Shown: one piece after another, positions 6,134 to 63,970 of the stretch
How positions within the stretch are numbered: the stretch's first letter is position 1
Layout: every line of letters starts with the position of its first letter
The notes under the pieces: generated by a model
What the model was told of the DNA's origin: nothing
Database searches by the model: none
Seen by the model: the letters and a program-made list of their open reading frames with translations, nothing else
Made by a program: the position numbers and the translations under genes
Source: a virus
Length of the DNA: 64,000 nucleotides
IMG/VR virus record: IMGVR_UViG_3300005253_002057
Span: 24,158 to 88,157 of that record
Reading direction: 5' to 3' (one strand)

Positions 6134-6135
6134 AC

Positions 6136-11426: not shown

Positions 11427-11427
11427 C

Positions 11428-37887: not shown

Positions 37888-37916
37888 TTGACATTATCAT
37901 CAAGATGATGTATAAT
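37888..37916 (+). promoter_or_regulatory. sigma70-type promoter, leaderless start
   Basis: TTGACA (37888-37893), a 17-bp spacer and TATAAT (37911-37916). The ATG at 37923 is where transcription should start. The context AACTTGACATTA and ATGATGTATAAT is nearly identical to the promoter at 50917. Confidence 0.85.
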
Positions 37917-39504: not shown

Positions 39505-40377
39505 ATGAATATTCTTCTGGAAGACAACGAAGTAAGTAACAGTGTAGTTTCTTTTCTACGACAACAAGGCTACACTGTATTCAATAAGCTTCCTAAAGCT
39601 ACTAGACTAGACTATGCTATATCTACTAATGGAATAAGTACTCTATACAAATGGAGTCCTAGAAGAAACTTATTCAAGAAGACACCTATAGCTAACAAGA
39701 TAATACTTTGGCAAACTAAAGAACTAATAAAGAATATAAGCAAGTTGGATAAGTTAGATGATGTATGGTACATAACTCATCCAGCTCAACTAGAAGGAGT
39801 TTTACCCCTATCTCCTAAAGTATTACCCTTACTTCTAAAGGATCTACCTGCTGTATCTATAGGAGATGAAGAGAAAAGGCTAAGAAAAGTAATAGTAATA
39901 GGTGAAGAGCGAAGTAAGCATATACAGATGACTAAAGATGCTTGTCAAAGCATTGATGTAGACTTTGAAATCTTCGACCCTATAAAAAGGGCAAGAAGCT
40001 GGGGATTAGGTGAAGAACAAGTGGCTAGAGAGTTACAAGAACTACTGTCCATAGCTGCTATATCTGTGGCCCTATACTCCCCTAATGAAGATAAGAGCTT
40101 TTACTACTCGGATCCAAAAAGAATAAAACAATCCCTAGCCTTTGGAGTGCCAGTAATAACCACTCCTATACCACCTATATGGGAAGAAATAGAGCAATTC
40201 TCAGCTGGAGTAGTTATAAAAGACTTTTATCTTGATTCCTTAAAACTTGCTCTTGAAGTAGTACTAGATAATTGGCAAGTAATGGCCATAAATGCCAGAA
40301 CCTTGGCAGAAAAATATGTAGTATCCTCAGACTGGATAAATCTAATGGAGGAAGTAGAGAGAGTTGAATCAAACTAG
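39505..40377 (+). CDS. GT4-like glycosyltransferase, paralog 1
   Basis: A 290-residue protein. The C-terminal half contains SVALYSPNEDKSFYYSDPKR then GVPVITTPIPPIWEEI, the donor-binding region shared with the proteins at 42594 and 58757. The N-terminal half is shorter and divergent. Predicted to transfer a sugar to a lipid-linked surface glycan. It overlaps the following dehydrogenase by 14 bases. Confidence 0.65.
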   Translation: MNILLEDNEVSNSVVSFLRQQGYTVFNKLPKATRLDYAISTNGISTLYKWSPRRNLFKKTPIANKIILWQTKELIKNISKLDKLDDVWYITHPAQLEGVLPLSPKVLPLLLKDLPAVSIGDEEKRLRKVIVIGEERSKHIQMTKDACQSIDVDFEIFDPIKRARSWGLGEEQVARELQELLSIAAISVALYSPNEDKSFYYSDPKRIKQSLAFGVPVITTPIPPIWEEIEQFSAGVVIKDFYLDSLKLALEVVLDNWQVMAINARTLAEKYVVSSDWINLMEEVERVESN

Positions 40378-41518
40378 CATAGGAGTAATAGGACTAGGTA
40401 GACTAGGACTTCCAGTAGCATCTTTGCTAAGTAGATATTATCCAACTGTAGGGCTAGATATAGATCAAGCAAAGATAGACTCACTTAACAAGGGTACATT
40501 CACAACCAGTGAGCCTAACTGTACTACTTCTGGGGCAGCCTACTATACTACAGACTACGATAGCTTAGTATCCTCTTCAGATATAGTAGTGGTCTGTGTT
40601 AATACTCCTACAGATGCAAATGGCAACATGGACTCTACTCAGTTAAAAGAATGCTTCAAAAGTCTAGACAAGGCACTGGCTAGTACTAGCAAGAATATAA
40701 AGATACTAGTGCTTAGCACTCTAATGCCAGAACATGGAGAATGGCTAGCCTCCTTCTTCTCCGAGCGCAAGTGGCCTCCCCAGATAGTAATTAATCCAGT
40801 CTGGATTGCTATAGGTAGCGTAATAAAAGATCTGCAGAATCCTCCAATGCAAGTATACGGAGGTGATTCAGATAAGCCAATTCTATGGGCTATAAAGTTA
40901 TGGGCAGATATTCCGTCAGTTGAGTATCATACGCCTATAATAACTGACACACGTACAGCAAGTTTCTTAAAGCTAGCCCATAACGCTTGGTGTACTATGA
41001 AGATGTCATTTATAGGAGAGCTGGGGGACAAAGCAGCGCAGTTAGGAATAGACATAAATACCACGTCAGAGTTCTTCAGGCGAGGGGGAGAGAGGCCTGG
41101 AGCGTTCTGGCAGTATGGACCTTCATTCGGAGGACCTTGTTTTCCCAGAGACTTAGACTTCTTCAACCAATTCACTGACTCAGGTCTAGGCAGGCGAGTA
41201 CAGCTAATAAATTTTAGTAGACTACATAACATAGCTGCACAAGTTAAGTCTAAGAACACAGTTCTTATAGTAGGTAAGACCTATAAAGAGGGAGTAGACA
41301 TAACTGAGTCTTCTATATCACTTAAGCTGGAGCAGCTACTACTGAAAAAGAGCTGTGTAGTAGACTTTCTAGATGAAGATCTTAATGAACTACCTGGCTC
41401 AGACGTATCAGCCTACGATACAGTAATAGTACTTCATAGAGGATACGATAGACTAATATCCGAAGCCAGAGAGACTAGCAATCTACAAGTAATAGACTTA
41501 TGGTCAACCAAGGAGTAG
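40364..41518 (+). CDS. UDP-glucose/GDP-mannose dehydrogenase family enzyme
   Basis: A 384-residue NAD-dependent sugar-nucleotide 6-dehydrogenase. The Rossmann motif GLGRLG is at 10-15, CVNTPTD near 78-84, and the catalytic cysteine C259 sits in GPSFGGPCFPRD. It would make a UDP-uronic acid or similar for the glycan. The sequence is divergent from textbook Ugd; the second copy at 54738 is closer to the WecC/WbpA type. Start overlaps the preceding gene. Confidence 0.8.
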   Translation: MNQTSIGVIGLGRLGLPVASLLSRYYPTVGLDIDQAKIDSLNKGTFTTSEPNCTTSGAAYYTTDYDSLVSSSDIVVVCVNTPTDANGNMDSTQLKECFKSLDKALASTSKNIKILVLSTLMPEHGEWLASFFSERKWPPQIVINPVWIAIGSVIKDLQNPPMQVYGGDSDKPILWAIKLWADIPSVEYHTPIITDTRTASFLKLAHNAWCTMKMSFIGELGDKAAQLGIDINTTSEFFRRGGERPGAFWQYGPSFGGPCFPRDLDFFNQFTDSGLGRRVQLINFSRLHNIAAQVKSKNTVLIVGKTYKEGVDITESSISLKLEQLLLKKSCVVDFLDEDLNELPGSDVSAYDTVIVLHRGYDRLISEARETSNLQVIDLWSTKE

Positions 41519-41520
41519 TA

Positions 41521-42594
41521 GTGAAAATAGTTGTAACTGGTGGAGCATCATTCATAGGTTCTCATCTAGTAGAAAAACTAGATGAACTAAATCACGAAGT
41601 AACCATAATAGATGATCTTTCAAGTGGAAGCAGAGAGAATCTAAAAGCTGTTTCTTATAGAAGACTTCTAACCTGGGATCTTCGTTGGGCCAGTCTGCAC
41701 AATCTTACTAATGAACTCAAGAGAGCGGATGTAGTCTTCCATCTAGCTGCAGATCACGGAGGGAGAGGATACGTAGAACTAGAGCAAGTAGCCTGCAGTA
41801 ATAACTTTGCTATAGATAACAATGTACTTCAAGCCTGTATAGAGGCTAAAGTACCTAGACTAATCTTTGCTTCAAGTGGCTGCATCTATCCAATGTTCAT
41901 GCAGAATGATACTAGTAGAAGCGTCTATCTAAAAGAGGACTGGGCCTCCTTAAAAGGACCTAGACACGCAGAAGTATCTGAATCAGCTAGTCTAGATGGA
42001 CTAATTCAACCTGATGGTCTCTATGGATTAGCTAAGCTAACTATGGAAATGTCTCTACAAGCAGCATACAAAGAAAAAGGGCTCAATTCCGTATCCTGCC
42101 GTTTCTTCACTGTATATGGACCTAGGGCAAAAGAAAATCACGCAATAATATCATTTATAGCAAGAACTCTAGTAAAACAAGATCCTTTCACTGTATGGGG
42201 CGATGGAACTCAAATACGAAACTGGACTCACGTAGATGATATAGTTAAAGGAATGATTCTAGCCATGGAGCATTCCTCTCTACAAGAAGGAGCCCACGCT
42301 CTTAACCTAGGTACTATGGAGAAGATAACTGTATCCGAAGCAATCTCTCGTACAATTGTCCTAGCTAGGGCTGCACACGGTTGGGAGTACAACCCTCAGA
42401 TCGAACACCAGCTAAACAAGCCAATAGGCCCTCTTAATAGAGTGGCTGATAACTCTAAACTCCTAAGCCTAGGGGGGGATGAACCAGTGCCATTCAAAGA
42501 GGGACTAAAGAGTACTCTAGATTGGTACTTCTCTACCAAAGATCAAAGCTATGTAAAGGAAAATCTTGAAAGATTGCTGGTATCCAGAAAGTAA
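41521..42594 (+). CDS. NAD-dependent sugar-nucleotide epimerase/dehydratase
   Basis: GTG at 41521 follows AAGGAG and is preferred to the ATG at 41500. It is an extended SDR: GGASFIGSH near the N terminus, ASSGCIYP, the YGLAK active site (Y168, K172) and RFFTVYGPR, with WTHVDDI further on. Likely epimerises the sugar nucleotide made by the neighbouring dehydrogenase, for example a UDP-glucuronate or GDP-mannose-type substrate; specificity cannot be read from the sequence. Confidence 0.85.
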   Translation: MKIVVTGGASFIGSHLVEKLDELNHEVTIIDDLSSGSRENLKAVSYRRLLTWDLRWASLHNLTNELKRADVVFHLAADHGGRGYVELEQVACSNNFAIDNNVLQACIEAKVPRLIFASSGCIYPMFMQNDTSRSVYLKEDWASLKGPRHAEVSESASLDGLIQPDGLYGLAKLTMEMSLQAAYKEKGLNSVSCRFFTVYGPRAKENHAIISFIARTLVKQDPFTVWGDGTQIRNWTHVDDIVKGMILAMEHSSLQEGAHALNLGTMEKITVSEAISRTIVLARAAHGWEYNPQIEHQLNKPIGPLNRVADNSKLLSLGGDEPVPFKEGLKSTLDWYFSTKDQSYVKENLERLLVSRK

Positions 42595-43550
42595 TGGACA
42601 TACTAGTAATCTCATACAATATCCCAGGCTATGCTCCCAACCTACTTATAAAATGGCTCAAGCCTCAAATTGGCTATAGAACAGGAGCAATAAGACTCCC
42701 AAGTAGAATAGATAAAAACTTCGCCCCTATACTAGGTCATCTACTTAACTTTCTAAGTCTAGTAAAGAGATGGGGTAGATATGATCTAGTAGTAACACCA
42801 GATCCCTTAACTACTCTTGCCGTACACTACTCTAAAGTAAAAACTAAGCGTCTTTGTTACTGGCGCTTAGACTATCACCCTAAGAAATTTGGACACTTCA
42901 ACTTCGTCTATCAATGGATAGAAACAAAAGCCTTAAAAGTTGCCGATGAAGTATGGTCTATGGCTGATCCTACTGATACTAGAGTACAAAGACAGCTAAT
43001 GTATAAAGTTAACTTAGAAAGGCATAGCAAAGTAAAGCACGTACCTTACATGCTATCCAAGCTACCACCAGTTCATCCAATAGAAGAAAGACTTAAAAGA
43101 GTCTTATGGATGGGACCAGATAAAAGTAGGGCTAGGGAAGTATTTAAGTCCATAGCTCCTGACTTGGCTAAACTTGGATTCATGATTACGATAGTAGACT
43201 ACTCAGTAGAAGACTTAAGAGTAAATACTCAGGCTCTAGACCAAATACTAGCTACATCAAAAGTAGGAGTAGCCCTCTATGACCCTAATAATAGAGAAGG
43301 AAAATATTACTCAGACCCAGCCAGAATAAGACATTATCTTGCTAATGGAATTCCAGTAGTAGTTACAAGAGTTCCTCCAGTTTGGAAGGACATAGTTGCT
43401 TATGGAGCTGGAGTAGCTATAGAACTGGATAAAGTAGAATTACTAGGAGCCATAAAGCACTGCCTAAATAACTTTGAGACAATGTCTAAACAAGCCCTAC
43501 TACTAGCAAAGATGAATGTAATGACAGAGGAACGCTTTGGACTGGTATAA
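42594..43550 (+). CDS. GT4-like glycosyltransferase, paralog 2
   Basis: A 318-residue protein starting MDILVISYNIPGYAP. It shares with the protein at 58757 the segments YWRLDY-PKK, DEVWSMA and HVPYMLSKLP, and the late donor-site region KYYSDPARIRHYLANGIPVV then PPVWKDI. The two are clear paralogs. Predicted to act at the inner face of the membrane on the lipid-linked glycan. Confidence 0.75.
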   Translation: MDILVISYNIPGYAPNLLIKWLKPQIGYRTGAIRLPSRIDKNFAPILGHLLNFLSLVKRWGRYDLVVTPDPLTTLAVHYSKVKTKRLCYWRLDYHPKKFGHFNFVYQWIETKALKVADEVWSMADPTDTRVQRQLMYKVNLERHSKVKHVPYMLSKLPPVHPIEERLKRVLWMGPDKSRAREVFKSIAPDLAKLGFMITIVDYSVEDLRVNTQALDQILATSKVGVALYDPNNREGKYYSDPARIRHYLANGIPVVVTRVPPVWKDIVAYGAGVAIELDKVELLGAIKHCLNNFETMSKQALLLAKMNVMTEERFGLV

Positions 43551-44238
43551 GAAGGCAAGAGCCTATGCAAGAAGACTAAGATACAGCTCTAGAATAGAAG
43601 ATGGGCTCTGTGGACTGGCTAATATAGATTTCAAAACTGTTCTAGACATAGGAGCGGCAGATGGAAGATCTGCAAAGAAGTATCTAGGAATATTTCCAAA
43701 TGCAACAATACATTCTTTTGAGCCTCAGATAAAAGAATATAATAAGTTACGTCTACTGGAAGAAAAAGAACCTAGATTAGTAGCTCACAACTTAGCCTTA
43801 GTACAGAACGATAACTTATCAATAGGTACATTACTTAGATATAAAAATCAAAGTACAAGTACAGCTTCTATACTACAACCTACTGCAGTTTTAGGAGATT
43901 CAGCCCGCACTCCAAAAGTTAGGGAAACAGTTAACTTAATGACTCTAGATCATTGGGCAAATAATTTCAGTCTACAAGGCCCTATACTAGTAAAGATGGA
44001 CGTACAAGGCTATGAGATGTCTGTAATACTAGGAGGGCAAGATCTTCTTAGAAGAGCCAAGGCTGTAATAACTGAAGTTTGCTTTGAAGAATACTATGAA
44101 GGACAAGCAAACTTCTGGCAACTTTATTATAGCCTAGGCTTTCCAGAACTAGGTTTTGATTACATAGGAAATCTAGACCAAGTAGCTGCTTCAGATGGAA
44201 AGATAAAGTTCATAGACGCATGTTTCTTACGACAGTAA
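43537..44238 (+). CDS. FkbM-family methyltransferase
   Basis: A 233-residue SAM-dependent methyltransferase. SAM motif VLDIGAADGRSAKKY (about residues 35-49), acidic EPQ, and the FkbM signature LVKMDVQGYEMSVILGG (about residues 147-163). FkbM enzymes commonly O-methylate sugars in surface glycans. Overlaps both neighbours by 14-19 bases. Confidence 0.8.
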   Translation: MDWYKKARAYARRLRYSSRIEDGLCGLANIDFKTVLDIGAADGRSAKKYLGIFPNATIHSFEPQIKEYNKLRLLEEKEPRLVAHNLALVQNDNLSIGTLLRYKNQSTSTASILQPTAVLGDSARTPKVRETVNLMTLDHWANNFSLQGPILVKMDVQGYEMSVILGGQDLLRRAKAVITEVCFEEYYEGQANFWQLYYSLGFPELGFDYIGNLDQVAASDGKIKFIDACFLRQ

Positions 44239-45380
44239 AGTTAGCCCTCTCCAAGTCTACTAGAATACTAGTATATGTACTACTAGGAATTCTATTTAAC
44301 ATAGGGGAACAAACAGATGAATTCTTTTTAGCCTATTCACTTGCCACTTTTGTAGTAACAGTAGTTACTGTATCAGAATCATATCTACTAAAATACACTA
44401 GTCAGATGTTAGGAGCCTTTATACTAATACTAACCCCAATAGTAATAGTACTAGCAACTGCTATATTCTTCATAGGAAACAGTCCTCTAGTATATATGTT
44501 ACTTCCTTACATAATACTAGCCACTTTGGCTAGTGTACTAACTGGTACAGTAAACAGTAAAAAACAATACACCATAACTTTATACTCATCTATAGCATAC
44601 ATACTAATACTCCCAATAGTATTTACAGCCAAGTTATTAGAGACAGAATACATACTAGAAGTAATAATACTACTAATAACTTTACCAGAATTAATAAGGC
44701 TAGTACTCTTGATAAAGCTAAGCACAAGTCCTCTAAATACTTTAACTAAGATAGAATTTCCTAGTAAAGTAATGTTACTCTTAATAGCAGCTCCTATACT
44801 AGTAACTATATCAGTAGTACTGGAAAGAATAGTAATAACCACTACACTACCAATAGGCTCAATAACTATCTGGTCCTACATTTTTGGCTTAGTAGGAGTA
44901 ATAGGTGGAGTAGTAAACTATGGAAGAATAGTACACTACACTAACGAGGATGACGAGAATATAAGTATAGTACCAAGCCTAAAACTAGGACTAATAATGA
45001 TTTTAGTTCTAATAATACCAGTCGGTATAGTTTCTCAACTACCCCCTATAGAAATAAACTTTACTCTTGTATCCCTTAGTCTACATGTCTCAGCAGCAAA
45101 CATATTAGTACTACTATTCATAGCCTCGCTTTCCCTTCCAATAAGATACACTATAGCAAGACTTGTAGTAGTATTAATAAAGTATGAGAAGACAAAGACA
45201 CTAATACTTGCATCTATAACCCTACTAATAGCCAAGCTACTGTTAGTGGGGATTCTTAGTCTAATAAGTATAGAAGCCGCAGCTGTAGGTGTTGTATGCT
45301 CAGAACTAGTGTATCTAATTATAGTATACATATCAGTAAAGCGCACTTTCTTGTCCCCTCAATCCTCCTATTCTTATTAG
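44220..45380 (+). CDS. Wzx/MurJ-like flippase (putative)
   Basis: A 386-residue, extremely hydrophobic protein with about 11-12 membrane helices. The early GEQTDEFFLAYSLATF resembles the TDAFFLA-type segment of MurJ/Wzx lipid-linked oligosaccharide flippases. It is placed among glycosyltransferases, the initiating transferase and a polymerase, which fits a flippase. Shorter than most Wzx proteins (about 410-480). Confidence 0.6.
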   Translation: MFLTTVKLALSKSTRILVYVLLGILFNIGEQTDEFFLAYSLATFVVTVVTVSESYLLKYTSQMLGAFILILTPIVIVLATAIFFIGNSPLVYMLLPYIILATLASVLTGTVNSKKQYTITLYSSIAYILILPIVFTAKLLETEYILEVIILLITLPELIRLVLLIKLSTSPLNTLTKIEFPSKVMLLLIAAPILVTISVVLERIVITTTLPIGSITIWSYIFGLVGVIGGVVNYGRIVHYTNEDDENISIVPSLKLGLIMILVLIIPVGIVSQLPPIEINFTLVSLSLHVSAANILVLLFIASLSLPIRYTIARLVVVLIKYEKTKTLILASITLLIAKLLLVGILSLISIEAAAVGVVCSELVYLIIVYISVKRTFLSPQSSYSY

Positions 45381-47083
45381 TAGTACATGTAACTATATAC
45401 ATAGTACTAAATTTCTACATAAGACAAGGAGTATTAGAGCATCCAGATAGTCCATTCTATCACGCAATAGCTCTAACACTTGCGAGGGATTGGGGAGAAG
45501 GCTATATACACTTCGCAAAATACCCAGAGTATACTAACATACTTGCCTTACCTTACTACATTTTAGGCCCAAGTAGAATCTGGGGAGAGTTACTAAATAT
45601 AGCAGCTCATCTAGGCACTGCCCTGATAGCATATAAGACTGTAAAGAACTTAGGTTTTCTACCCAAGCAAGCTCCTATACTAGCCTTATTAATAATAGGA
45701 TTAAATCCTTATGAACTCTACATGTCTACTCAGTTACTTAAAGATACACTAATAATCTTTGGAGTCTCACTATCATTACTAGCCTTTACTAGAAGACCTA
45801 GACTTTCAACTAGTCTAATACTTCTAGCAGGTTCTAGCATAGTAATGTTTTTAAGACAAGAATTTGGTATAGCAGTATTCGCAGTATTAAGCTTATATAC
45901 TATTCTACTCTTGATAAGAGTAAAGAGACCAGCTAGTAAAGAAATAGGGCTTATCATCCTTCCTGCAGCAATAATTCTTGTACCTCTTATTTCTATGCAG
46001 TATATAATTAAGTACACTCACTTTCCAGCCCTAGACAGCGAAGAAATAAGAGCTGAGGCTAAACTCAAAGCTGAGCAAGTAAAAAAGAGAGTAAACTGGA
46101 TACCAGGGCAGCCTCATATAGAATTCTTTGACACTAGAAATCCAGTAGCGCAAGCGACACATTGCAGAACACCTTTACTATACTCTAAGAATATAACTTA
46201 TTGCTCTACTATATTAATAAAAAATGCTCTGGAGACGGTATTCTTTCCATATCCTTGGACAGCAAATACTATAGTAGAGCTAGGATTCGCTGTATATATG
46301 TCAGGTTGGTATCTCTTATTAGCTATAGGAACAATAACTCTTGCAGTAAATAGGCCCAAGATAGTATTAGTTTTACTAGTAGTATCATTTCTACTACTAC
46401 TACCTCTATCAATGCACATAATAAAGCAATCTGGTTTTGTACGCTGGAGGCTACCAGTCTTTTACTTACTGGAGCTAGGGCTTATAATAAGTGTATCACA
46501 GCTATTTATCTACAAGTATGCAAAAAGATTACTGGATATAATTCTCTCTTTAACTTTTCTAATTTTAACTGCCCCAGTAGCTTTTGCTATAATTTTAAGT
46601 AATATGTACTTACTAGTTCCTGTATTCTATTCTCAGATAAGAGCAGGAAAGTTAGGCATTCAAATAACAGTCTATAAGTTCACAACCCTTATCAAATCAG
46701 ATAATGTGGATGAGTCCCCTCCTGGATTAGCCCCTTCAGCAAGTGGAATGAAGTATACAGCTATAGGAAAGTTATTAAGAAGTCTTGCCTTAGATGAGAT
46801 ACCCCAGCTAGTAAGTATCCTTAAAGGAGATATATCCCTAGTAGGGCCTAGAACGCTAGACTGGGAGCTACATACCCACTGTAAAGAAACCATACCTAAT
46901 TGGACTACCAGAAACAAGGTAATACCAGGAGTAACTGGCCTAGCACAGTTAAATACTGACAGACTTGACAATTTCAAGCGACTGTATTATGATATACAAT
47001 ATGTAAACAATCCAAGTATGATCCTCGATCTAAAACTTATAGCGAAGGGATTAATAAGAAGCATTAAAAGGAAGTGGCATTGA
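45296..47083 (+). CDS. membrane GT-C-like domain fused to initiating sugar phosphotransferase
   Basis: 595 residues. The N-terminal part (about 1-400) has about 8-9 membrane helices with LNPYELYMS and LLKDTLIIFG, also seen in the protein at 57727 and typical of GT39/ArnT-like membrane proteins. The C-terminal part (about 405-595) is a bacterial sugar transferase: ALDEIPQLVSILKGDISLVG and PGVTGLAQLN. The second half would start glycan assembly by loading sugar phosphate on undecaprenyl phosphate. The fusion is unusual. TTG 45350 is an alternative start that reduces overlap with the flippase gene. Confidence 0.8.
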   Translation: MLRTSVSNYSIHISKAHFLVPSILLFLLVVHVTIYIVLNFYIRQGVLEHPDSPFYHAIALTLARDWGEGYIHFAKYPEYTNILALPYYILGPSRIWGELLNIAAHLGTALIAYKTVKNLGFLPKQAPILALLIIGLNPYELYMSTQLLKDTLIIFGVSLSLLAFTRRPRLSTSLILLAGSSIVMFLRQEFGIAVFAVLSLYTILLLIRVKRPASKEIGLIILPAAIILVPLISMQYIIKYTHFPALDSEEIRAEAKLKAEQVKKRVNWIPGQPHIEFFDTRNPVAQATHCRTPLLYSKNITYCSTILIKNALETVFFPYPWTANTIVELGFAVYMSGWYLLLAIGTITLAVNRPKIVLVLLVVSFLLLLPLSMHIIKQSGFVRWRLPVFYLLELGLIISVSQLFIYKYAKRLLDIILSLTFLILTAPVAFAIILSNMYLLVPVFYSQIRAGKLGIQITVYKFTTLIKSDNVDESPPGLAPSASGMKYTAIGKLLRSLALDEIPQLVSILKGDISLVGPRTLDWELHTHCKETIPNWTTRNKVIPGVTGLAQLNTDRLDNFKRLYYDIQYVNNPSMILDLKLIAKGLIRSIKRKWH

Positions 47084-48339
47084 ACTGGACAAAGGCACTA
47101 GAAGGACTTAGAAACATAGGTATACTTTTATATGGACTAGCCGCTGCACTAGCTTATCTACCAATATTTGACTCTCCATTCTACACTCCCTATGAATTAT
47201 CAAACTATGCAAGATTCACTGGAATAAGCATATCCTTATCAGATATAACCTTTGTATTTGCACTAGTACTAACTCTATTTACAACTATAATTCTAGACCT
47301 TACTAAAGTATTACTAACTAAACAACAGACATTAATACTAGTTGCCATATTATTTCCTTTAGGAGTAAGTATAGGAAACAATCCAGAATTAGCAACACTA
47401 GCAAGGGTATTAAGATTAGTAATATATACTACACTACCCTTATTGCTGCTAAATAATAAAAAAGACTTACGCATGTTTGCACTAGGATATATAAGTCTAA
47501 CAGTGCCACAACTAGCAGCAGTATTAGGGCAAAGACTAGATGGAGCCCAGATGATAGGGCTAACTCTTAATCCTAACTTAGTTGCTAGTTATGGATTAAC
47601 CAGCCTAATTATATGGATATACGCTTGGTTTCCAGCAAACTATAGGACTAAATCAATAAAAGTAATAATTCTACAAATACTACCAGTAATACTAGCCTCC
47701 TTTCTTATAGTATTACCTGTTAGCAGGGGCTCAATTATAGCCGTACTTTCCCTACTAATAGTACTAGTAGTAATATACAGAGGAGGGCTAACAAGATTTA
47801 CTTTAATACTACAAGTAGCAGGACCAGCACTCGTAGTTGTAATTATAGTAATAACCACAGGTCCTAGATTAGACCATCTTATAAGATCTCACTCCTTTGA
47901 AGAAGCAACTCTAATAGGAAAAGTAGACTCCTTCACATCTGGAAGAGTAAGTAGTACTCAAAGACATATAGATAAGATAACAGAGGATGGAGTATGGACT
48001 AAGGGATATGGGGCTGGAAGATATACAGAGGCTACTGGAAAAGCCCCACCTAACAATCTATATCTTACAACTATAGGGGAGCTGGGAGTCATATTAGCTA
48101 TACTTTACCTCTCAGCCTTTATAGCATTAGTAATACTAAGACCTCAGCTAATACTACCCTTAGCAATACTAGGGCTAGTATCATATCTAACACACTCAGC
48201 AGAAGGAACTCTGATAACCTATACTCTTATAGGAGTAGCAATTGCAAGCCTTACTTATATTACTGAAACCAGCAGCACTATTGTTAAGCATATTCATAAA
48301 GAAACCAAGGTCCCTACTAGCCAAGAGTCTACTATATAG
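47080..48339 (+). CDS. Wzy/O-antigen ligase-like membrane polymerase
   Basis: About 419 residues with about 11 helices. A loop between helices near residues 285-335 (RVSSTQRHIDKI, KGYGAGRYTEATGKAPPNNL) matches the Wzy_C/WaaL periplasmic loop, and LPVSRGSIIAVLSL precedes it. TTG 47080 is chosen because AAAGGAA lies 7 bases upstream; GTG 47074 is the alternative. Predicted to polymerise or ligate the flipped repeat units. Confidence 0.75.
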   Translation: MNWTKALEGLRNIGILLYGLAAALAYLPIFDSPFYTPYELSNYARFTGISISLSDITFVFALVLTLFTTIILDLTKVLLTKQQTLILVAILFPLGVSIGNNPELATLARVLRLVIYTTLPLLLLNNKKDLRMFALGYISLTVPQLAAVLGQRLDGAQMIGLTLNPNLVASYGLTSLIIWIYAWFPANYRTKSIKVIILQILPVILASFLIVLPVSRGSIIAVLSLLIVLVVIYRGGLTRFTLILQVAGPALVVVIIVITTGPRLDHLIRSHSFEEATLIGKVDSFTSGRVSSTQRHIDKITEDGVWTKGYGAGRYTEATGKAPPNNLYLTTIGELGVILAILYLSAFIALVILRPQLILPLAILGLVSYLTHSAEGTLITYTLIGVAIASLTYITETSSTIVKHIHKETKVPTSQESTI

Positions 48340-49090
48340 AATACGTAGACTACTAGGAGTGCACAAAGCTTTTAATAAGCTGGATAAAGACATAGAAAGA
48401 ATAGCCTTAAAACTAAATACAGAAGCTCTAACAATGCCTAGTGTTCTGACTATCACGAATAGTACTATTACAAATAAGTTAGCCATACTACTACATGGAA
48501 CAGACACAGTACCTAACGACTTTTTCAACAGGGCAACATACTTAAACAATCTAGGAAATAGACTAACTGCATACGACTATGTAGTATCTGCCCCTTATAT
48601 AGTAAGAGAGGCAAAGACACTACAAAGAATACGATCACTGAGTGAAAGAATAAAGTGTACATCCTTTGAAAGAGACCTAGCTCTAGGTATAGCAAGTAGC
48701 ATACCATTTTATTTTGATGTAGTTATATATGGAATAAGCTGGGGGGCAGAAGTTGCTATAAGTCTAGCTAGAATAATGAAGCCTAGATTACTTATTCTCT
48801 CAGGGCTAGATCCTGACCCAGTAGATACTTTACAACATAAGTTCAGTCTGGGCAAAAAACTAGACCCTATGTACGTTCCAGCAAGACCATCACTCTATGC
48901 AACACTACAAGAACTAGAAACAACTACTATACTTGAGTATGGAAACCAAGATATAGACCCTAGTGGGCTAGACAGCCTTGGGCCTTGGCCAGACAACGTA
49001 CTAGAACTAAGATTCCAGGGAGGCCATGAGATAAATCCTACAGACACTACCTTAAAAGCTATGGAGAGATTACTTGAGCAAACGAATTAG
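48242..49090 (+). CDS. alpha/beta hydrolase, membrane-anchored, copy 1
   Basis: 282 residues with an N-terminal hydrophobic anchor. The fold shows the oxyanion HGT, the nucleophile elbow YGISWGAE (GxSxG), the acid in LEYGNQD, and the final GGHEINP histidine. It is a close relative of the next gene. It may remove acyl groups or cut glycan in the polysaccharide pathway; substrate unknown. It overlaps the polymerase by about 98 bases, so the start may lie further in. Confidence 0.65.
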   Translation: MQALLILLKPAALLLSIFIKKPRSLLAKSLLYRIRRLLGVHKAFNKLDKDIERIALKLNTEALTMPSVLTITNSTITNKLAILLHGTDTVPNDFFNRATYLNNLGNRLTAYDYVVSAPYIVREAKTLQRIRSLSERIKCTSFERDLALGIASSIPFYFDVVIYGISWGAEVAISLARIMKPRLLILSGLDPDPVDTLQHKFSLGKKLDPMYVPARPSLYATLQELETTTILEYGNQDIDPSGLDSLGPWPDNVLELRFQGGHEINPTDTTLKAMERLLEQTN

Positions 49091-50099
49091 GTTCATATTC
49101 GCTTTACCTGTGCTACTAGTAACAGTAGCCTTATTAGTATTACTGCTAACCTCAGCAGACACACCCCCTGCAGAACAGACAAGGGGCAGATATACTCAGG
49201 CACTAGACCAGCTCTATCTTAATATGCCCAGCATAATAGGATGTAATACCTCTCTGACCATAGAAAGTATGCTTAATAGTAGTCCTAGATCAGTAAAGCA
49301 GTGGGGAAGAAATCTAGAACAGGAGTTCAGTTTTATAATAGATGAACCTAAGAACAAGTATACACTACTCACAGCAGACTATACTTCAAGATTCATACGT
49401 CTAGCAGTACTATCAAAGATAGCAGTTCCACACTCTGCTACTAGGGAAAGTAAAAAGCCTTTAGTAGTATTCATCCACGGATTAGCAACTAATCCAGACA
49501 GGGCCTTCGAAGGACCAAGATTAGATTATCTAAACAACATAGGTCATAGACTAGCTAGTAACGACTTTATAGTAGTAGTACCTTTCATCTACAATGACTT
49601 AAGATGGAACTCGTTAGCAAATAGCCTATATCCAGTGCTAGAACTCAACGTAGCAGCTATACAAGCTTCTATAGATCTAATGCTCCATGAGTTTCCTGTA
49701 GACGAAGATAAAATAGTCCTATATGGAATCTCAGAGGGGGCTGACATAGCTAGAAGAGTGGCTTCTCTAGATGAGCGAATCGATCTAGTAGTACTTAATG
49801 GAAGACATAACGACCCAACAGGATTTCTGCTAGATCAAGGAATAGATACAGCAAATATAGATCCCACTGCTTTCTCGGACAAAGATCCTTGTTCTTCAAG
49901 TATTCTAGCCGAGTATAAAGAAATAAAGGTACCTATAATACTAGAATACGGAGGAGACGATCAACAAGATTTCAATCTAGAAAAGACGGTAGAACTTCTA
50001 GGGGAAAAGGATTTAGAAGTTGTACGATATAAAGGGGGACATGCTATAAATCCAGACAACGAAACAATCAACTTAATTAAGAAAAGGCTGGGACAATAG
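49074..50099 (+). CDS. alpha/beta hydrolase, secreted/anchored, copy 2
   Basis: 341 residues, with a signal anchor at about 7-27. FIHGLATNPDRAFEG, the nucleophile YGISEGAD, LEYGGDDQQD and YKGGHAINPDN give a complete Ser-Asp-His triad. Clear paralog of the preceding gene, with the same final GGH-INP element and the shared DYLNNIGHRLAS-type segment. Probably acts outside the cytoplasmic membrane on surface glycan or lipid. Confidence 0.7.
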   Translation: MSKRIRFIFALPVLLVTVALLVLLLTSADTPPAEQTRGRYTQALDQLYLNMPSIIGCNTSLTIESMLNSSPRSVKQWGRNLEQEFSFIIDEPKNKYTLLTADYTSRFIRLAVLSKIAVPHSATRESKKPLVVFIHGLATNPDRAFEGPRLDYLNNIGHRLASNDFIVVVPFIYNDLRWNSLANSLYPVLELNVAAIQASIDLMLHEFPVDEDKIVLYGISEGADIARRVASLDERIDLVVLNGRHNDPTGFLLDQGIDTANIDPTAFSDKDPCSSSILAEYKEIKVPIILEYGGDDQQDFNLEKTVELLGEKDLEVVRYKGGHAINPDNETINLIKKRLGQ

Positions 50100-50893
50100 T
50101 GCTTAGCTGGCCACAGAAAAAAGCAATAGCAGACATATCTTACTCTAGCCTCCCTAAAACTAAAATACTAGAAGTAGGCTTTGGAAATGCTGAAGTCCTA
50201 GACCGATTATCCCTACATACTGAGTACGAACTAGTAGCTGGGATAGAAATATCTGAAGAAGCAGTAAAAGCAGCTAGAAAAAGACTAGGCTATAGAAGAA
50301 ATATACTACTAATGAATGAAGAGGGCTCAGGACTAGGAAACGTACCAGGCTATGACATTGCGCTGGCCTTTGAAGTAATAGAACATCAAAAGAATCCCTT
50401 AGAATTTCTACAGCGCCTTCCAGGACATATATTATATCTAAGCACCCCAAATGTAAGAAGATGGTACGTAGAAAAATTCAAAGACTACGAGTACTGGGAC
50501 TGGCCTCCAAATCACCTATGGCGTTTCTGTGACTGTCCAGCCTCTACTAGTGCTAGAACTTATTGCTCTGAAGCATGTACATGCTGTATGATAGACGAGA
50601 AAGTACCAACAGTACATATAGAGACACTTCTTAAGGAAGCTGGTTATAATGTAGTAAATGTACAGGCTGGACCTGTACAAGCAATAGATATAGTTAGGAG
50701 TATCTCTGGAAGAATAAGGCCCAAGAAGTTAAGTGCAGATTACGATGAAATGAGATCTGAATCCAGCTTAATAAGAACTATAGCCAGAAACATACTACTA
50801 CCCCCCTCAGCACTTTATGCTAAGTACTTATCAGCTAAGGGATATCAAGGGGGTAACTTATACATAAAGGCAGTAAGAGACTACCCTGTATAG
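50099..50893 (+). CDS. class I SAM-dependent methyltransferase with Cys-rich insert
   Basis: 264 residues. SAM motif KILEVGFGNAEVLDRL (about 22-37), acidic GIEISEEAV and AFEVIEH. An insert FCDCPAS-x-YCSEACTCCM (about residues 142-162) has six to seven cysteines and likely binds metal. Last gene of the first polysaccharide block. Target unknown; a glycan modification or a DNA/protein target are both possible. Confidence 0.65.
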   Translation: MLSWPQKKAIADISYSSLPKTKILEVGFGNAEVLDRLSLHTEYELVAGIEISEEAVKAARKRLGYRRNILLMNEEGSGLGNVPGYDIALAFEVIEHQKNPLEFLQRLPGHILYLSTPNVRRWYVEKFKDYEYWDWPPNHLWRFCDCPASTSARTYCSEACTCCMIDEKVPTVHIETLLKEAGYNVVNVQAGPVQAIDIVRSISGRIRPKKLSADYDEMRSESSLIRTIARNILLPPSALYAKYLSAKGYQGGNLYIKAVRDYPV

Positions 50894-50894: not shown

Positions 50895-50945
50895 TTTACC
50901 AAGCCTTGGTAAAAACTTGACATTACTGTCACAATGATGTATAAT
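50895..50945 (+). promoter_or_regulatory. sigma70-type promoter with upstream palindrome
   Basis: The palindrome TTTACCAAGCCTTGGTAAA (50895-50913) lies just before TTGACA (50917-50922), with a 17-bp spacer and TATAAT (50940-50945). ATG 50953 is where transcription should start, so the mRNA is leaderless. The palindrome is probably an operator; it could also serve as a hairpin after the previous gene. Confidence 0.8.
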
Positions 50946-50952: not shown

Positions 50953-51294
50953 ATGAGTATTGAAGTCGACATATTAGACGTAGCAGATGCTAAAGCTTCT
51001 TCCCTTATATTCATAAGTAACCATCAAGATTTATTAACTATATATACAGAAGACGATGCAGAATTTCTAGAATCTGTACTAGGCTTTAGAAGTGAGTTCG
51101 GTTACATAGCACCTTTACTAGACATCTATCAGGCTAAAGTTTTACTAAGAAAGTTCAACTGGACTATTCTTCCAGAAGAGATACCAAACCATCTAGCTTA
51201 TTATCTCTTCAGAGTATTAAAAATCAAGTGCAGAAAGTACAGACAGCATAAATACAGAAAAGTTATGCAGATGATAAGGGAAGAAAGTAGATGA
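50953..51294 (+). CDS. helical protein related to the N-terminal domain at 22542 (113 aa)
   Basis: Residues 61-108 align with residues 64-109 of the 232-residue protein at 22542 (LLRKFNW-x-LPEEI, YYLFRVLK-x-CRKY). Very basic C terminus. First gene of the PolB cassette, so a replication or regulatory role is plausible. No named family. Confidence 0.6.
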   Translation: MSIEVDILDVADAKASSLIFISNHQDLLTIYTEDDAEFLESVLGFRSEFGYIAPLLDIYQAKVLLRKFNWTILPEEIPNHLAYYLFRVLKIKCRKYRQHKYRKVMQMIREESR

Positions 51295-51626
51295 CTAGCC
51301 CTAAAAGAAGAAAGTCTATAAAAAGACAACGTTTCGAGCGAAGAGTAAGAATGGCTGGACTTATAAAAGATGGCTTTGACCCTGGAGAGGCTGAATTTCT
51401 AGCCCAGCTTAACTGGAAGCTAGGAGATAGTCCATTAAAAGAAAGACGAGTAGTACGTAGAAGAGAGGTAAGGGAGCTAAAGAAAAGGGGCTGGAGTAAT
51501 ACAAGAATAGAAGAATTCTTCTTTCAGCAGTGGGTAGCTATAAATGAGTCAGAACTTGTTAGCCAATTAATAGATGAAAAGTATCAACAATCAAGAAGAA
51601 CAGGAAGAAGAGCCAGAGCGGCTTAA
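51291..51626 (+). CDS. basic protein directly upstream of PolB; terminal-protein candidate
   Basis: 111 residues, strongly basic and helical (RRKSIKRQRFERRVR, RRREVRELKKRGWSNTRIEE, RRTGRRARAA). In protein-primed viruses the terminal protein gene often sits just before the polymerase. This protein overlaps the polymerase start and is basic, but it is shorter than known terminal proteins and no homology is visible, so the idea is speculative. Confidence 0.5.
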   Translation: MTSPKRRKSIKRQRFERRVRMAGLIKDGFDPGEAEFLAQLNWKLGDSPLKERRVVRRREVRELKKRGWSNTRIEEFFFQQWVAINESELVSQLIDEKYQQSRRTGRRARAA

Positions 51627-53584
51627 TGAGAAGCAAGAAACAAGTAAGAAGGCCAAAGCCAGAACCTACACAGAAGTACTCTGAGATAGTAACTGGTACT
51701 GAGTTCGAGAGAACACCTTGGGAAGACCTTGATTTTTCTTTAGACATAAAAGGCTATAGTCCTGAAGTAGAAAGACCTATATTTTTAGCAGTAGGATTAG
51801 CTATTGCAACTAACATAGCCGGTGATGTACTAGCAGTAGGAGACACCAGAAACAATATCACATATACGATAGCATCATTACTAGATCTTCACGAGCACAT
51901 AACTACCAACAGACTTGATATAGACATAGAAGAGACAACTGGCTACTTCTTATATAGTGAATCAGACTTTGATTGTCTACTAAGACTACTTCCATTCGAC
52001 CAGGCTGAAGATTTAGCCATAAACAGAAAAATAGCAATTCCAGAACTTCAGATATGGTACACACCAAATTCCAAGCTTACACTAAAAAGCAAAGGGGCTA
52101 CAATAAGAATATATGCTCTACAAAATATACTACCAGCATATAATCTAGAAGAGGCAGTAACAAAGTATGGATTTTCTGATAAGCATGGGAACAGCTTTCG
52201 TGTCAGCACTAATAATCTTCATAACGATAGCAGCAGCTATAATCTACTGGAAGAAGCAAAAACCCACCAAGAATTAGCCATCTTTGCAAAGGATAGGCTA
52301 AAACAAGTAATAGACTTACAGAAAGATGAACTAAAGAATCCTAGCACCTGGGTAGATAGGGACATAAGAATGTCCCAACTAGCCATAGATAGATCATCAA
52401 TACCAGAAGAAGTATACTCTGAGTACTATAGAGGAATACATGCCCCTTGGGTAGAGACATTTCAGAAAGGATACTTTCCCACAGCCTACGACTATGATAT
52501 CAATAAAGCATACGCCTGGGCAGTAGGTAATCTAATAAATGTAGATTCACACTCAGGATCTTGGATTTATTCAGAAGAGTATGAGCCAGATGCAGCATAT
52601 GGAATAGTAATGTGCTACATAAGATTAAATCCAAGTTCAGTATCTCCAATCTTTTTACGTCTAGATAGCTGGGTGGCATCAGTATCAGGAACCTTTATAG
52701 AGAGATTAACCAAATCAGAAATAGACTTCATCTACAAACATCGACTTGGAATAGTAAGAATACTATATGGGTACTGGTTCAAACCAGAAACTATAGAATA
52801 TCCATTTTACCACAAGATGAGAAAAAGGCTTGCCCAGTATGAACTAGCGGCAAAAGACAATCAAGTACTAAGAGTGGTCTTGAGATTGATGTACACTCGC
52901 ATAGTAGGAAAGTTTCTTGCAAGATATGAAGATTTAGAGACAGGAAGATGGAAGCCAGGCCCCTTCTTCAATCCTATATACTATGTAGAAGCTGCAACCA
53001 CAGTAAAGCTAAAGGTAGCAGAAGCAGCACTACTAAATCCTAAGAGTGTAATATCAATAGCCACCGACGGAGTGCTAACATCCAGTCCCTTACACTTCAA
53101 GCAGAGTAGAAACCAAAAGAAGGCTAACCCAAGATTAATAACAAGCACAGCCCCAGGAGAATTCAAGTTATCCACTACAGGCCCTGCAGTAGTAATATCA
53201 GCAAACATAGCTGAGGTACATGGAAAGGATAGCTTCTTCCCTCTAATAGAAACTATATTAGACAAGCCAGAAGACACCATATATAAGTTTGAAGTAGGGG
53301 AAAGAATAAAACTTTGCACAGCTCTAAGAGGAAAGAATCTAGCCAGGACAGGAAACCTTAACTTGGAAGCAGTTCATGTAAATATAAGGGCAGACAATAA
53401 GAGATTCTGGCCAAAGCTTCCATTTGTAGGAAAAGATTTACTAGTAGATAGATTCGGTTCAGCTATACTAAGTGTAGAAGAAGCTCTACTACAATCAAAC
53501 TATAGATACAATCAGCAAGAAGATTGGCTGGGCAAAGCTAATAGAGAATTAAGAAAGAAGCTGAGTGTTGAAAGAGCTGTTTAA
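51626..53584 (+). CDS. divergent family B DNA polymerase (possibly protein-primed type)
   Basis: 652 residues. Motif A is YDYDINKAYA (D291), motif B RLMYTRIVGKF (420-430) and motif C SIATDGV (D481). The order and spacing fit family B polymerases of the small, protein-primed kind. In motif C the first Asp of the usual DTD is Ala, but the second catalytic Asp remains. The N-terminal 250 residues do not show a convincing exonuclease; a separate PolB-type exonuclease is encoded at 60789. This is the second replicative-type polymerase in the window. Family is likely, activity is inferred. Confidence 0.7.
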   Translation: MRSKKQVRRPKPEPTQKYSEIVTGTEFERTPWEDLDFSLDIKGYSPEVERPIFLAVGLAIATNIAGDVLAVGDTRNNITYTIASLLDLHEHITTNRLDIDIEETTGYFLYSESDFDCLLRLLPFDQAEDLAINRKIAIPELQIWYTPNSKLTLKSKGATIRIYALQNILPAYNLEEAVTKYGFSDKHGNSFRVSTNNLHNDSSSYNLLEEAKTHQELAIFAKDRLKQVIDLQKDELKNPSTWVDRDIRMSQLAIDRSSIPEEVYSEYYRGIHAPWVETFQKGYFPTAYDYDINKAYAWAVGNLINVDSHSGSWIYSEEYEPDAAYGIVMCYIRLNPSSVSPIFLRLDSWVASVSGTFIERLTKSEIDFIYKHRLGIVRILYGYWFKPETIEYPFYHKMRKRLAQYELAAKDNQVLRVVLRLMYTRIVGKFLARYEDLETGRWKPGPFFNPIYYVEAATTVKLKVAEAALLNPKSVISIATDGVLTSSPLHFKQSRNQKKANPRLITSTAPGEFKLSTTGPAVVISANIAEVHGKDSFFPLIETILDKPEDTIYKFEVGERIKLCTALRGKNLARTGNLNLEAVHVNIRADNKRFWPKLPFVGKDLLVDRFGSAILSVEEALLQSNYRYNQQEDWLGKANRELRKKLSVERAV

Positions 53585-54549: not shown

Positions 54550-54772
54550 CTGGAGTAAAGAAAAAGTATATAAAGTAACTGGAGGCTTTGCGATAGTGGA
54601 TTGCTTCACATGCAAAGCTCCTATGATAGTATGGCTATACTGTAAAGAACCAGGGCCAAGAAGCAAGCTTAGGGCACTAAAAGAAATGCACTCTCTATTC
54701 GGAGCAAATTCTGTAATAAGGGGAACAAGAACAAAGTATGACCACCCTCACGAACATATCCTACTTACATAG
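54485..54772 (+). CDS. small zinc-binding protein (95 aa)
   Basis: Cysteines at CPSSPLC and CFTCK plus a later Cys, with an HEH near the C terminus, suggest a zinc ribbon. It overlaps the regulator by 65 bases and the next dehydrogenase by 35, in different frames, so the start is uncertain. Confidence 0.45.
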   Translation: MELAIMTPCPSSPLCNWRIRHNWSKEKVYKVTGGFAIVDCFTCKAPMIVWLYCKEPGPRSKLRALKEMHSLFGANSVIRGTRTKYDHPHEHILLT

Positions 54773-56000
54773 TAGAATCAAGCAAAACCTTGAGACTGAG
54801 ATAATAGTAGCAGGCCTGGGTTACGTGGGAAATCCTCTAGCCAAGCTACTTATGAAACACTATCCTAGAGTATCAGGAGTAGACCCTAACCCAAAAAGAG
54901 TAGAAGGAGTTGGAGTAGAGGCACATATAGACTATGACTACTTAAGAACAACTTCAGTTAACGTAGTAATAGTCTGTGTACCTACTCCATTAAGTAAAAC
55001 ACACGAGCCAGACTTATCTTACATAGTAAGTGCTACAGAAGATGTGGCTCAGTACATAATCAAGAGAGCAGGATCTCCTGTATTAGTAGTAATTGAAAGC
55101 ACTACTTACCCAGGAACTACAGAGGAGCTTATTTTACCTATACTACAAAAGGTAGGGGTCCTGGGCAAAGACTTTTTCCTAGCCTATTCACCAGAGCGTC
55201 TTGACCCTGGAAACGAAGAGTGGAACATAGGAAACACTCCTAAGATAATAAGTGGAGTTACAGAAGACTGTCTCACACTAGTAGAAGCCCTTTATGAACC
55301 AGTAGTACCTGTAGTAAAAGTGAGTTCTCCAAAGGTAGCAGAAATGACAAAGCTGCTAGAAAATACCTTTAGAGCAACCAACGTAGCTCTAGTTAATGAG
55401 ATAGCAATAGTTTGTGACAAGCTAGAGATAGATGTATGGGAGGTAGTAAAAGCAGCAGCTACCAAGCCTTTCGGCTTCATGCCTTTCAGACCAGGCCCTG
55501 GGCTAGGAGGACATTGCCTTCCAGTAGATCCTCAGTACCTAGCTTGGAAGCTAAAAACATTAAATTACAATACTAGATTCATACAAACTGCAACAGAGAT
55601 AAACTCAGAGATGCCTGCATACTGGGTATCCAAAGTACAAGATGCCCTCAATGAAAAACAGAGATCAATAAAAAGTGAAAGCATCTTAGTTCTAGGAGTG
55701 GGATACAAGCCAGACACCGACGACATAAGAGAGTCTCCAGCACTAGACATAATAAAGTTGCTACAGGATAAAGGAGCAGTAGTATACTATCACGACCCAC
55801 TAGTTAAAGACCTTAGTCCCTTACTAGAGATGAAGTCAGTAGCCGACTCCGAGCTCAACTATGATGGAATATTCGGCTATGGCGCAGTAATTCTAGCCAC
55901 AGACCACTCAGTATACTTTGACCAAGTACCAGGTATACTAGATACACTAAAGTACCCACCAGAACATCTATGCGTAGTTGATACAAGGGGAGTCTTATGA
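54738..56000 (+). CDS. UDP-N-acetyl-mannosamine/glucosamine 6-dehydrogenase-like enzyme
   Basis: 420 residues, full length for the WecC/WbpA type. GLGYVG is at 26-31, CVPTPL at 80-85, and the catalytic C260 sits in GPGLGGHCLPVDP. A C-terminal domain with LGVGYKPDTDDIRESPA follows. Oxidises a UDP-HexNAc to the uronic acid. It is more canonical than the paralog at 40364, suggesting that the glycan contains two different uronic acids or that the copies arrived separately. Confidence 0.88.
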   Translation: MTTLTNISYLHSRIKQNLETEIIVAGLGYVGNPLAKLLMKHYPRVSGVDPNPKRVEGVGVEAHIDYDYLRTTSVNVVIVCVPTPLSKTHEPDLSYIVSATEDVAQYIIKRAGSPVLVVIESTTYPGTTEELILPILQKVGVLGKDFFLAYSPERLDPGNEEWNIGNTPKIISGVTEDCLTLVEALYEPVVPVVKVSSPKVAEMTKLLENTFRATNVALVNEIAIVCDKLEIDVWEVVKAAATKPFGFMPFRPGPGLGGHCLPVDPQYLAWKLKTLNYNTRFIQTATEINSEMPAYWVSKVQDALNEKQRSIKSESILVLGVGYKPDTDDIRESPALDIIKLLQDKGAVVYYHDPLVKDLSPLLEMKSVADSELNYDGIFGYGAVILATDHSVYFDQVPGILDTLKYPPEHLCVVDTRGVL

Positions 56001-56080
56001 GCAAGTTAAGGCTAATAGGTCTAGCAGTAATAGTAGGTGGAGCACTAGCCCTAGTAATAACATTTCTAGCACAGCAATGA
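55997..56080 (+). CDS. tiny membrane peptide (27 aa)
   Basis: The ATG overlaps the dehydrogenase TGA and its own TGA overlaps the next ATG, both as ATGA, which strongly suggests a real coupled gene. One hydrophobic helix fills nearly the whole peptide. Confidence 0.5.
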   Translation: MSKLRLIGLAVIVGGALALVITFLAQQ

Positions 56081-56301
56081 CCACTAGAGAAGAAAGAATA
56101 ACCAGAGCTGCTAAAGCTTTAGCCTATACCTATGCTGACACCGGAAAAGCTATAGAGTGTAAAGTCTGTAACAGCTGGATATATACTCATAAAAGAGGAG
56201 CCTCAGCGGAGTATGATGCTCTAGCAGTGCACTTAGAGAACGATCACCCAGAGCTGCACAAAGAACTAGAAAAAGACTTTTACAGATTGAATCTAGGATA
56301 A
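56077..56301 (+). CDS. C2H2-type zinc-finger-like protein (74 aa)
   Basis: The ATG at 56077, coupled to the preceding peptide, is preferred to an upstream start in the dehydrogenase gene. CKVCNSW and, 23 residues on, HLENDHPEL give a C2H2-like site. Possibly DNA-binding. Confidence 0.6.
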   Translation: MTTREERITRAAKALAYTYADTGKAIECKVCNSWIYTHKRGASAEYDALAVHLENDHPELHKELEKDFYRLNLG

Positions 56302-56311
56302 GGAGTAAAAC

Positions 56312-56698
56312 ATGGAATTCTTAGAAGGAAAATTCATAACCATAACACGAACCAATCCTTTCGAGGAGCTAAAGCTGACAGACTCCTATAGAGAGTGGTA
56401 TGACTCCTTGGACGAAGCCATAAAGAAGCTGGAAGAAGAAGAGGCTAGCTCCACGTTCCCAGTAAGATACGAGGAGACAGTAATACTAAAAGTAGAAAAG
56501 GTGATAATAAACATAGACAATACCAAAATAGACATCAAGGCCTATAGAATTGAAGACGCAAAGAAAAAGATCCAAGAGCTAGAAAATATAGACTGGAGAA
56601 CCCTAACTCTTAATGAAGTAAAGTATATAGCCGCATTAAGGGACTACATAGACGGCAGACGAGATGAGTACCCTAAGAGGACTAGAGGCATAGGTTAA
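56312..56698 (+). CDS. charged helical protein (128 aa)
   Basis: ATG behind AAGGAG. Rich in Glu, Lys and Ile, with a beta section in the middle (VILKVEKVIINIDNTKIDIK). No family recognised. Confidence 0.5.
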   Translation: MEFLEGKFITITRTNPFEELKLTDSYREWYDSLDEAIKKLEEEEASSTFPVRYEETVILKVEKVIINIDNTKIDIKAYRIEDAKKKIQELENIDWRTLTLNEVKYIAALRDYIDGRRDEYPKRTRGIG

Positions 56699-56700
56699 AA

Positions 56701-56898
56701 GTGGAGAACCAGAAAACTTCTATACAACTAGAAGTAGAAGATGCTAATGGAATAGCTATATACAAGTCTCTACTAGGAGGAGAGGCCCACCACTGGATAG
56801 CAGAAGCTTATCTAGAGAACCCAGATCGCCATGGAGTAGGCTATGGAAAGACTATGCCTGAAGCACTAGAAGAAGCCATAGCTAACGTGGAAGAATAA
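56701..56898 (+). CDS. small protein, HicB-like fold possible (65 aa)
   Basis: Pattern of short strands, GYGKTMPEALEEAIANVEE at the end: a Gly, then a helix beginning near T-x-EAL. This resembles HicB-type or DUF1902 half-domains but lacks a DNA-binding part or a HicA partner. GTG start. Confidence 0.4.
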   Translation: MENQKTSIQLEVEDANGIAIYKSLLGGEAHHWIAEAYLENPDRHGVGYGKTMPEALEEAIANVEE

Positions 56899-56900
56899 GA

Positions 56901-63682: not shown

Positions 63683-63970
63683 TACTTTTTCATGCTACAG
63701 ACCCTAAAAACGTACAAAATATACTAAAAAGAGGCCTCGTACCTAGTCTAGCTTGGTTAAAGCGCTTCCCTCCAAAATTACTAGATCACCCAATACTCAG
63801 TGAAAAGAACCAAAAGTTTGTCTTTTTAGTATCGCCCGATGGGCTAGACGGTTTCGTAGAGGACGTTCTTGACCGAGGAAAAATTGGGCTAAAAGTAGAG
63901 ATTCCTAGTAATATACAACTAACAGATCTAGGATCAGCCACGGGAATACTAGTAACTAGACAAGTAATAC
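63679..63970 (+). CDS. ADP-ribosyltransferase-like protein (3' truncated)
   Basis: TTG start overlapping the previous stop. The 97 residues of true sequence begin ILFHATDPKNVQNILKRGLV, then FVFLVSPDGLDGFV, the H-x-T and strand pattern of ART/KptA-fold proteins. From 63971 the frame runs into adapter sequence and is not biological. Fold assignment is tentative. Confidence 0.45.

Follow-up and report, generated by a model that had tools for sequence, protein, structure and literature searches.

The 64,000-nucleotide stretch of DNA considered here (hereafter the window) corresponds to bases 24158-88157 of the 88,157-bp virus record IMGVR_UViG_3300005253_002057 in IMG/VR, and carries two runs of genes for building a glycan on a lipid carrier, together with a gene whose product resembles the capsid protein of fuselloviruses. 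The explanation judged best, to which we give roughly even odds (about 0.5), is that this is a bacterial virus with a fusellovirus-type capsid protein, in which two adjacent operons provide a lipid-linked glycan pathway of its own that alters the surface both of infected cells and of the particles departing from them. The gene content suggests a re-coating of the host cell and perhaps of the virus's own particles. A first-pass annotation, made from the letters alone, had described positions 39505-50893 as a near-complete Wzx/Wzy-type polysaccharide pathway in a virus-like element, an observation that is partly confirmed: the pathway is real as gene content and wider than first noted, but less complete than that description implies, and the virus carrying it is unusual in its own right.

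Enzymes of the glycan cluster

The limits first given for the cluster, 39505-50893, are correct, and they enclose 11 open reading frames (ORFs) on the plus strand (starting at 39505, 40364, 41500, 42594, 43537, 44220, 45296, 47074, 48242, 49074, and 50099) that overlap or abut one another. The phosphoglycosyltransferase, which would start the glycan, forms the C-terminal 185 amino acids of a 595-residue fusion protein (45296-47083), where PF02397 (Bac_transf) matches residues 410-587 at 1.8e-39 and the nearest sequences in the PDB are PglC-type enzymes (2.1e-25). The polyprenyl-phosphate phosphoglycosyltransferase expected of a Wzx/Wzy-dependent pathway is, by these matches, present, and a start of the chain on undecaprenyl phosphate is a well-supported predicted function. 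The N-terminal part of the fusion is a membrane domain that, in our own reading, is GT-C-like, its predicted structure being too poor (pLDDT 41) for a fold search.

Family assignments likewise support sugar oxidation, chain extension, and methylation as probable activities. The nucleotide-sugar dehydrogenase of UDP-glucose/GDP-mannose type (40364-41518) matches PF03721 (UDPG_MGDP_dh) at 4e-21 and phrog_9148 at 1.9e-52, lies below the cut-off of NCBIfam TIGR03026 (164.9 against 189.8 bits), and retains the active-site motif FGGPCFPRD. It is followed by an NAD-dependent sugar epimerase/dehydratase (41500-42594; PF01370, 5.6e-49) with an intact YGLAK motif, whose nearest solved relatives are GDP-mannose 3,5-epimerases (2.6e-29). 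NCBIfam concurs on the phosphoglycosyltransferase as well as on the sugar enzymes, with PHROGs concurring on the latter. The FkbM-type methyltransferase (43537-44238) matches PF05050 at 9.4e-15, and a further S-adenosylmethionine-dependent methyltransferase (50099-50893; PF13489, 4.3e-8, above cut-off) was passed over by the first-pass annotation despite lying inside its interval. Two paralogous alpha/beta hydrolases stand side by side, one at 48242-49090 with GISWG and GGH motifs and the other at 49074-50099 with an N-terminal membrane segment, GISEG and GGH motifs, and matches to PDB hydrolases at 4e-4; their Pfam matches are weak, and the GxSxG and later GGH motifs are intact in both. Thus, the dehydrogenase, epimerase, phosphoglycosyltransferase, FkbM enzyme, and two hydrolases named earlier are all borne out by Pfam or by motif reading. 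The glycosyltransferases at 39505-40377 and 42594-43550 fall under every Pfam cut-off (the former, with a GT-B type C-terminal half, reaches 0.0045 for GT1), and they are recognised as such by their paralogy with one another and with a third protein at 58757-59764 (36-40% identity between the latter and 42594-43550), all three having the motif YYSDPxRI in common.

This third protein belongs to a second glycan gene set in the next run of genes (54738-59764, plus strand), outside the interval first noted. The set encodes a second nucleotide-sugar dehydrogenase (54738-56000) that passes the TIGR03026 cut-off with 373.6 bits and keeps its GLGGHCLPVD motif, a second FkbM-type methyltransferase (56901-57734; PF05050, 6e-18), a membrane protein (57727-58839) identified by within-record comparison as a paralogue of the N-terminal domain of the fusion protein, and the third glycosyltransferase (58757-59764).

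Membrane steps and a proposed pathway

The candidate for a lipid-linked oligosaccharide flippase of MurJ/Wzx-like type is encoded at 44220-45380 (plus strand) and has 13 predicted membrane segments. Aligned by hhalign to a 17-sequence MurJ profile, it gives 255 collinear columns at an E-value of 0.01; the alignment pairs TDEFFLAY with a MurJ stretch of DAFxxA type, and ERIVITTTLPIGSI faces the corresponding MurJ stretch. Among the controls run against the same profile, four Wzx-like proteins scored ahead of it (1.7e-7 to 0.0015), while 26 membrane proteins of other kinds, including three encoded by this virus, reached 0.036 or worse over shorter stretches. A single-sequence structure model (pLDDT 47) was too poor for a fold search. 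The next gene but one encodes a Wzy_C membrane protein (47074-48339, plus strand; PF04932, 34.2 bits, cut-off 31.7) that could act as polymerase, ligase, or oligosaccharyltransferase.

In the pathway proposed, the two dehydrogenases and the epimerase would take nucleotide sugars from the host's pool and make acidic and epimerised derivatives of them, and the phosphoglycosyltransferase would transfer the first sugar-phosphate onto undecaprenyl phosphate. The three glycosyltransferases would then lengthen the chain, the FkbM enzymes would methylate it, with further sugars possibly contributed by the two GT-C-like domains. The glycan would be flipped by the 44220-45380 protein and polymerised outside by the Wzy_C protein; the pair of hydrolases may serve to trim the product or remove acyl groups from it. 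Spindle-shaped viruses exit through the membrane (PMC8491892), and since such bacterial pathways deliver their product outside the membrane, the cell and the particle alike would encounter the glycan. Most likely, therefore, the virus remodels the glycan on the infected cell's surface, and hence that of the departing particles, and the altered surface of the cell and of the particles leaving through its membrane would most likely block rival viruses and alter the particle coat. The first-pass interpretation, in which the element re-coats its host to exclude rivals or glycosylates its own membrane virion, is thus partly supported.

Capsid protein and type of virus

The putative major capsid protein (10779-11039, plus strand) is an 86-residue protein with two hydrophobic segments, the arrangement of the VP1-type capsid protein of spindle-shaped viruses. 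Its sole significant match in the PDB is the VP1 of entry 7xdi (3.8e-5; runner-up 3.6), which we take to be that of SSV19, a fusellovirus. Moreover, it matches the VP1 of SSV1 at 6e-7 and two PHROG families of virion proteins, including phrog_11172 at 4.9e-5, and none of 2000 shuffles preserving order and hydropathy reached its score. A second, paralogous capsid-like protein (14342-14563, plus strand; phmmer 4.1e-6 within the record) has no PHROG match of its own, and a profile built from both proteins again found 7xdi alone in the PDB (3e-5), with SSV1 VP1 as a positive control at 9e-7. A Zot-like ATPase (21831-22367, plus strand; PF05707, 8e-6; phrog_197, 6e-10; phrog_1979, 2.6e-13) may serve as packaging or extrusion motor, and no terminase, portal, or tailed-phage capsid protein was seen among the scanned proteins, which are part of the gene set. 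From SSV1, only VP1 and a probable zinc-finger protein were matched, and its end-filament protein, integrase, and VP2 have no counterpart here. The earlier suggestion of a membrane virion gains support from the capsid protein, and a glycan on the virion itself is a possibility. Taken as a whole, the picture of a bacterial virus with a particle made of fusellovirus-type capsid protein and with its own polyprenyl-linked glycan pathway coating both host cell and departing particles is tentative, and we would place it slightly short of an even chance.

Host domain and search for relatives

In the freely accessible literature that we found, subscription papers and preprints aside, spindle-shaped viruses are archaeal. 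The present record indirectly implies a bacterial host instead, because of its promoters, its regulators (GerE and Trans_reg_C), and the AGGAG sequences ahead of its start codons. Seven perfect sigma-70-type promoters occur in the 88-kb record, against 0.03-0.13 expected from Markov simulations, with a spacing of 17 in six of them and 18 in the remaining one; 12 sites are counted when one mismatch is allowed (against a mean of 2.1), and AGGAG precedes starts 28 times, against 6.5 expected. Three of the perfect promoters (50917-50945, 20767-20795, and, in record numbering, 10293-10265 on the minus strand) stop 7-10 nt ahead of the annotated start; unless these start codons are misplaced, messages from these three would be leaderless or nearly so.

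As regards the phylum, record titles mark every one of the best 80 relatives of the record's dehydrogenase in genome contigs as bacterial, Chloroflexi being commonest and among the two best, which is only a hint at Chloroflexi as hosts, since surface genes move between lineages. Searched with the capsid profile, 294 genomes from one class and 400 from the phylum to which a marine Chloroflexi genome belongs yielded no provirus, the one weak match containing internal stops. A Zot match in one genome was rejected as a provirus, there being no other viral neighbour.

Scans of IMG/VR with the phosphoglycosyltransferase (as the fusion and as an alignment), the Zot ATPase, the polymerase, FolE, the dehydrogenase, the glycosyltransferase alignment, and the capsid protein returned no related virus. 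The phosphoglycosyltransferase alignment picked out at least eight contigs, a lower bound given the restrictive scan patterns. Two of the three inspected hold a lone phosphoglycosyltransferase, the few proteins scanned there including neither Wzx nor Wzy, and the third has a Wzc-type protein beside it, near the contig end. Phage records with such genes are partial matches. Two apparent precedents were set aside: 'Acinetobacter phage MD-2021a' has at this place a capsule locus of bacterial origin, whereas 'Aphanizomenon phage Yong-DA' (ON073792), in which ParA/ParB and a replication protein accompany the polysaccharide cluster and no virion gene is annotated, is probably a plasmid.

Strength of the case and alternative explanations

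Several observations weigh against a complete pathway of the kind proposed. The protein at 44220-45380 is a flippase candidate only: the membrane segments and the collinear MurJ-like alignment speak for the flipping role first assigned to it, but its E-value is only modestly better than those of the other membrane proteins used as controls, and it matched nothing in Pfam above cut-off, NCBIfam, PHROGs, or PDB sequences. PF04932 spans polymerases, ligases, and oligosaccharyltransferases, so the match of the Wzy_C protein, which is near the cut-off, agrees with the polymerisation step claimed earlier without separating it from the other two activities. The Wzy-beta derived from phage D3 depends on Arg residues and a His in outer loops (PMC4815439). 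At the apparent HN position, where ligases keep a conserved His, the present protein has PPNNLYL in our own reading, and therefore neither a polymerase nor a ligase function is secured. Among the scanned proteins of both operons there is no chain-length regulator (Wzz/Wzc), no exporter, and no recognised ligase, nor was a nucleotidyltransferase seen among those of the cluster, so that 'near-complete' is generous; host proteins could supply the regulator and exporter. Finally, the searches described above yielded neither a host genome nor, in IMG/VR, a relative carrying the same cluster.

That the contig might be a chimera of bacterial and viral DNA, the objection foreseen in the first-pass annotation, is hardly credible. 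An Illumina Nextera adapter remnant at 63970-64000, the right end of the record, reveals an assembly not fully cleaned, and the genome is therefore probably incomplete at that end. However, neither composition nor codon usage breaks at the cluster: its codon usage differs from the rest by 0.058, the third lowest of 17 blocks (range 0.049-0.110), and its tetranucleotide difference of 0.169 falls near the top of the values for other segments (0.118-0.171). The first perfect promoter upstream of the cluster (TTGACA-N17-TATAAT) stands at 37888-37916 on the plus strand, and the left edge lies 4 nt from a viral ORF. At the right edge, another such promoter, of the record's own type (50917-50945, plus strand), begins no more than 25 bp beyond the last cluster gene and is followed by a gene (50953-51294, plus strand) that all-against-all comparison shows to be a paralogue of 22542-23240 in the virion module, which ties this edge to the virus. 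Gene overlaps, spacing, promoters, and paralogy thus place the pathway within the virus element, as first claimed, and 4 kb beyond the right edge comes the second, paralogous set. That the genes are mere cargo, newly acquired or in decay, with no role in infection is very improbable as well, if a little less so than a chimera; some enzymes do score far under family cut-offs, but all frames are open, motifs are intact, genes overlap, a paralogous second set exists, and codon usage is the element's own.

More serious are two readings that restrict the destination of the glycan, both of them unlikely. PglL-type oligosaccharyltransferases carry Wzy_C, and the Wzy_C protein might accordingly transfer the glycan onto the virus's own surface proteins, making it a coat for the virion only. 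Suitable acceptors would be the large virion-module proteins at 15739-18261 and 18596-20734, which have N- and C-terminal membrane segments, and the missing chain-length regulator and exporter would be in keeping with such a role, as would the glycosylated capsid proteins of fuselloviruses and the glycosyltransferase of a related archaeal virus (PMC10848311). This reading is weakened by the separation of the cluster operons from the virion module and by the absence from 47074-48339 of any mark of a protein ligase, PPNNLYL replacing the conserved His. Somewhat less probable still is an alteration of the host surface alone, as serotype conversion or superinfection exclusion with the particle left uncoated, for which phage D3 and other temperate phages with Wzy or O-antigen-modifying genes offer precedent (PMC4815439, PMC8787464). 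The known cases, however, involve one to three genes and not a pathway from initiation onward, and a particle that exits through the membrane as spindle viruses do would likely acquire some coating. A glycan altering both cell and departing particles is the explanation retained.

Other features of the record

Genes in the window lie almost all on the plus strand, whereas those of the left arm outside it lie mainly on the minus strand, and a scan of the window for RNA families and tRNAs found none. A single run at 1932-6133 encodes QueC, QueD-like, and QueE-like (radical SAM) proteins and GTP cyclohydrolase I, which fits a 7-deazaguanine pathway, possibly for DNA modification. It is followed at 7983-10712 by a family A DNA polymerase with a uracil-DNA-glycosylase domain at its N-terminus, and a second, divergent protein at 51626-53584 has a weak PHROG match to DNA polymerase (1.1e-5) and none in Pfam. 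The left arm (11394-12371 and 5476-6273 in record numbering, minus strand) encodes a protein with collagen-like repeats and a secreted, dockerin-like one.

Comparison with known systems and significance

The cluster resembles bacterial Wzx/Wzy loci for capsule or O-antigen in combining a phosphoglycosyltransferase start, glycosyltransferases, a Wzy_C protein, and sugar-nucleotide enzymes in one operon, with a many-helix membrane protein at the flippase position. It differs in being carried by a virus, in having no Wzz/Wzc/Wza-type genes in the scans, in a flippase that is a candidate, and in the fusion of the phosphoglycosyltransferase to an extra membrane domain. With Pseudomonas phage D3, an example of a phage whose own Wzy alters the host surface and makes the lysogen resistant to superinfection (PMC4815439), it shares a Wzy-type protein that may likewise alter the surface of its host; however, D3 uses three genes to alter the host's own O-antigen, whereas initiation, extension, methylation, and further steps are predicted here. 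Chloroviruses and mimiviruses also encode nucleotide-sugar enzymes and glycosyltransferases (PMC4691112), but in eukaryotic hosts and with icosahedral capsids, unlike the polyprenyl-linked, bacterial-type pathway of this record. The archaeal spindle-shaped viruses (Fuselloviridae, Thaspiviridae, Huangdiviridae, and Eurekaviridae) share the VP1-type capsid protein, of which Eurekaviridae likewise have a second copy, and some members have a single glycosyltransferase in place of a whole glycan pathway. In contrast to them, the present virus has bacterial promoters, a family A polymerase, a Zot-like ATPase, and a record of 88 kb, compared with 27-29 kb for thaspiviruses and 15 kb for SSV1.

Against the background of phages known to alter the host surface with so few genes, this would, if true, be a prokaryotic virus able to make glycans almost entirely on its own, a capacity already described for the large DNA viruses that infect eukaryotes. 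Moreover, if the capsid and host readings both hold, spindle-type viruses would not be confined to archaea, which bears on the age of the lineage.

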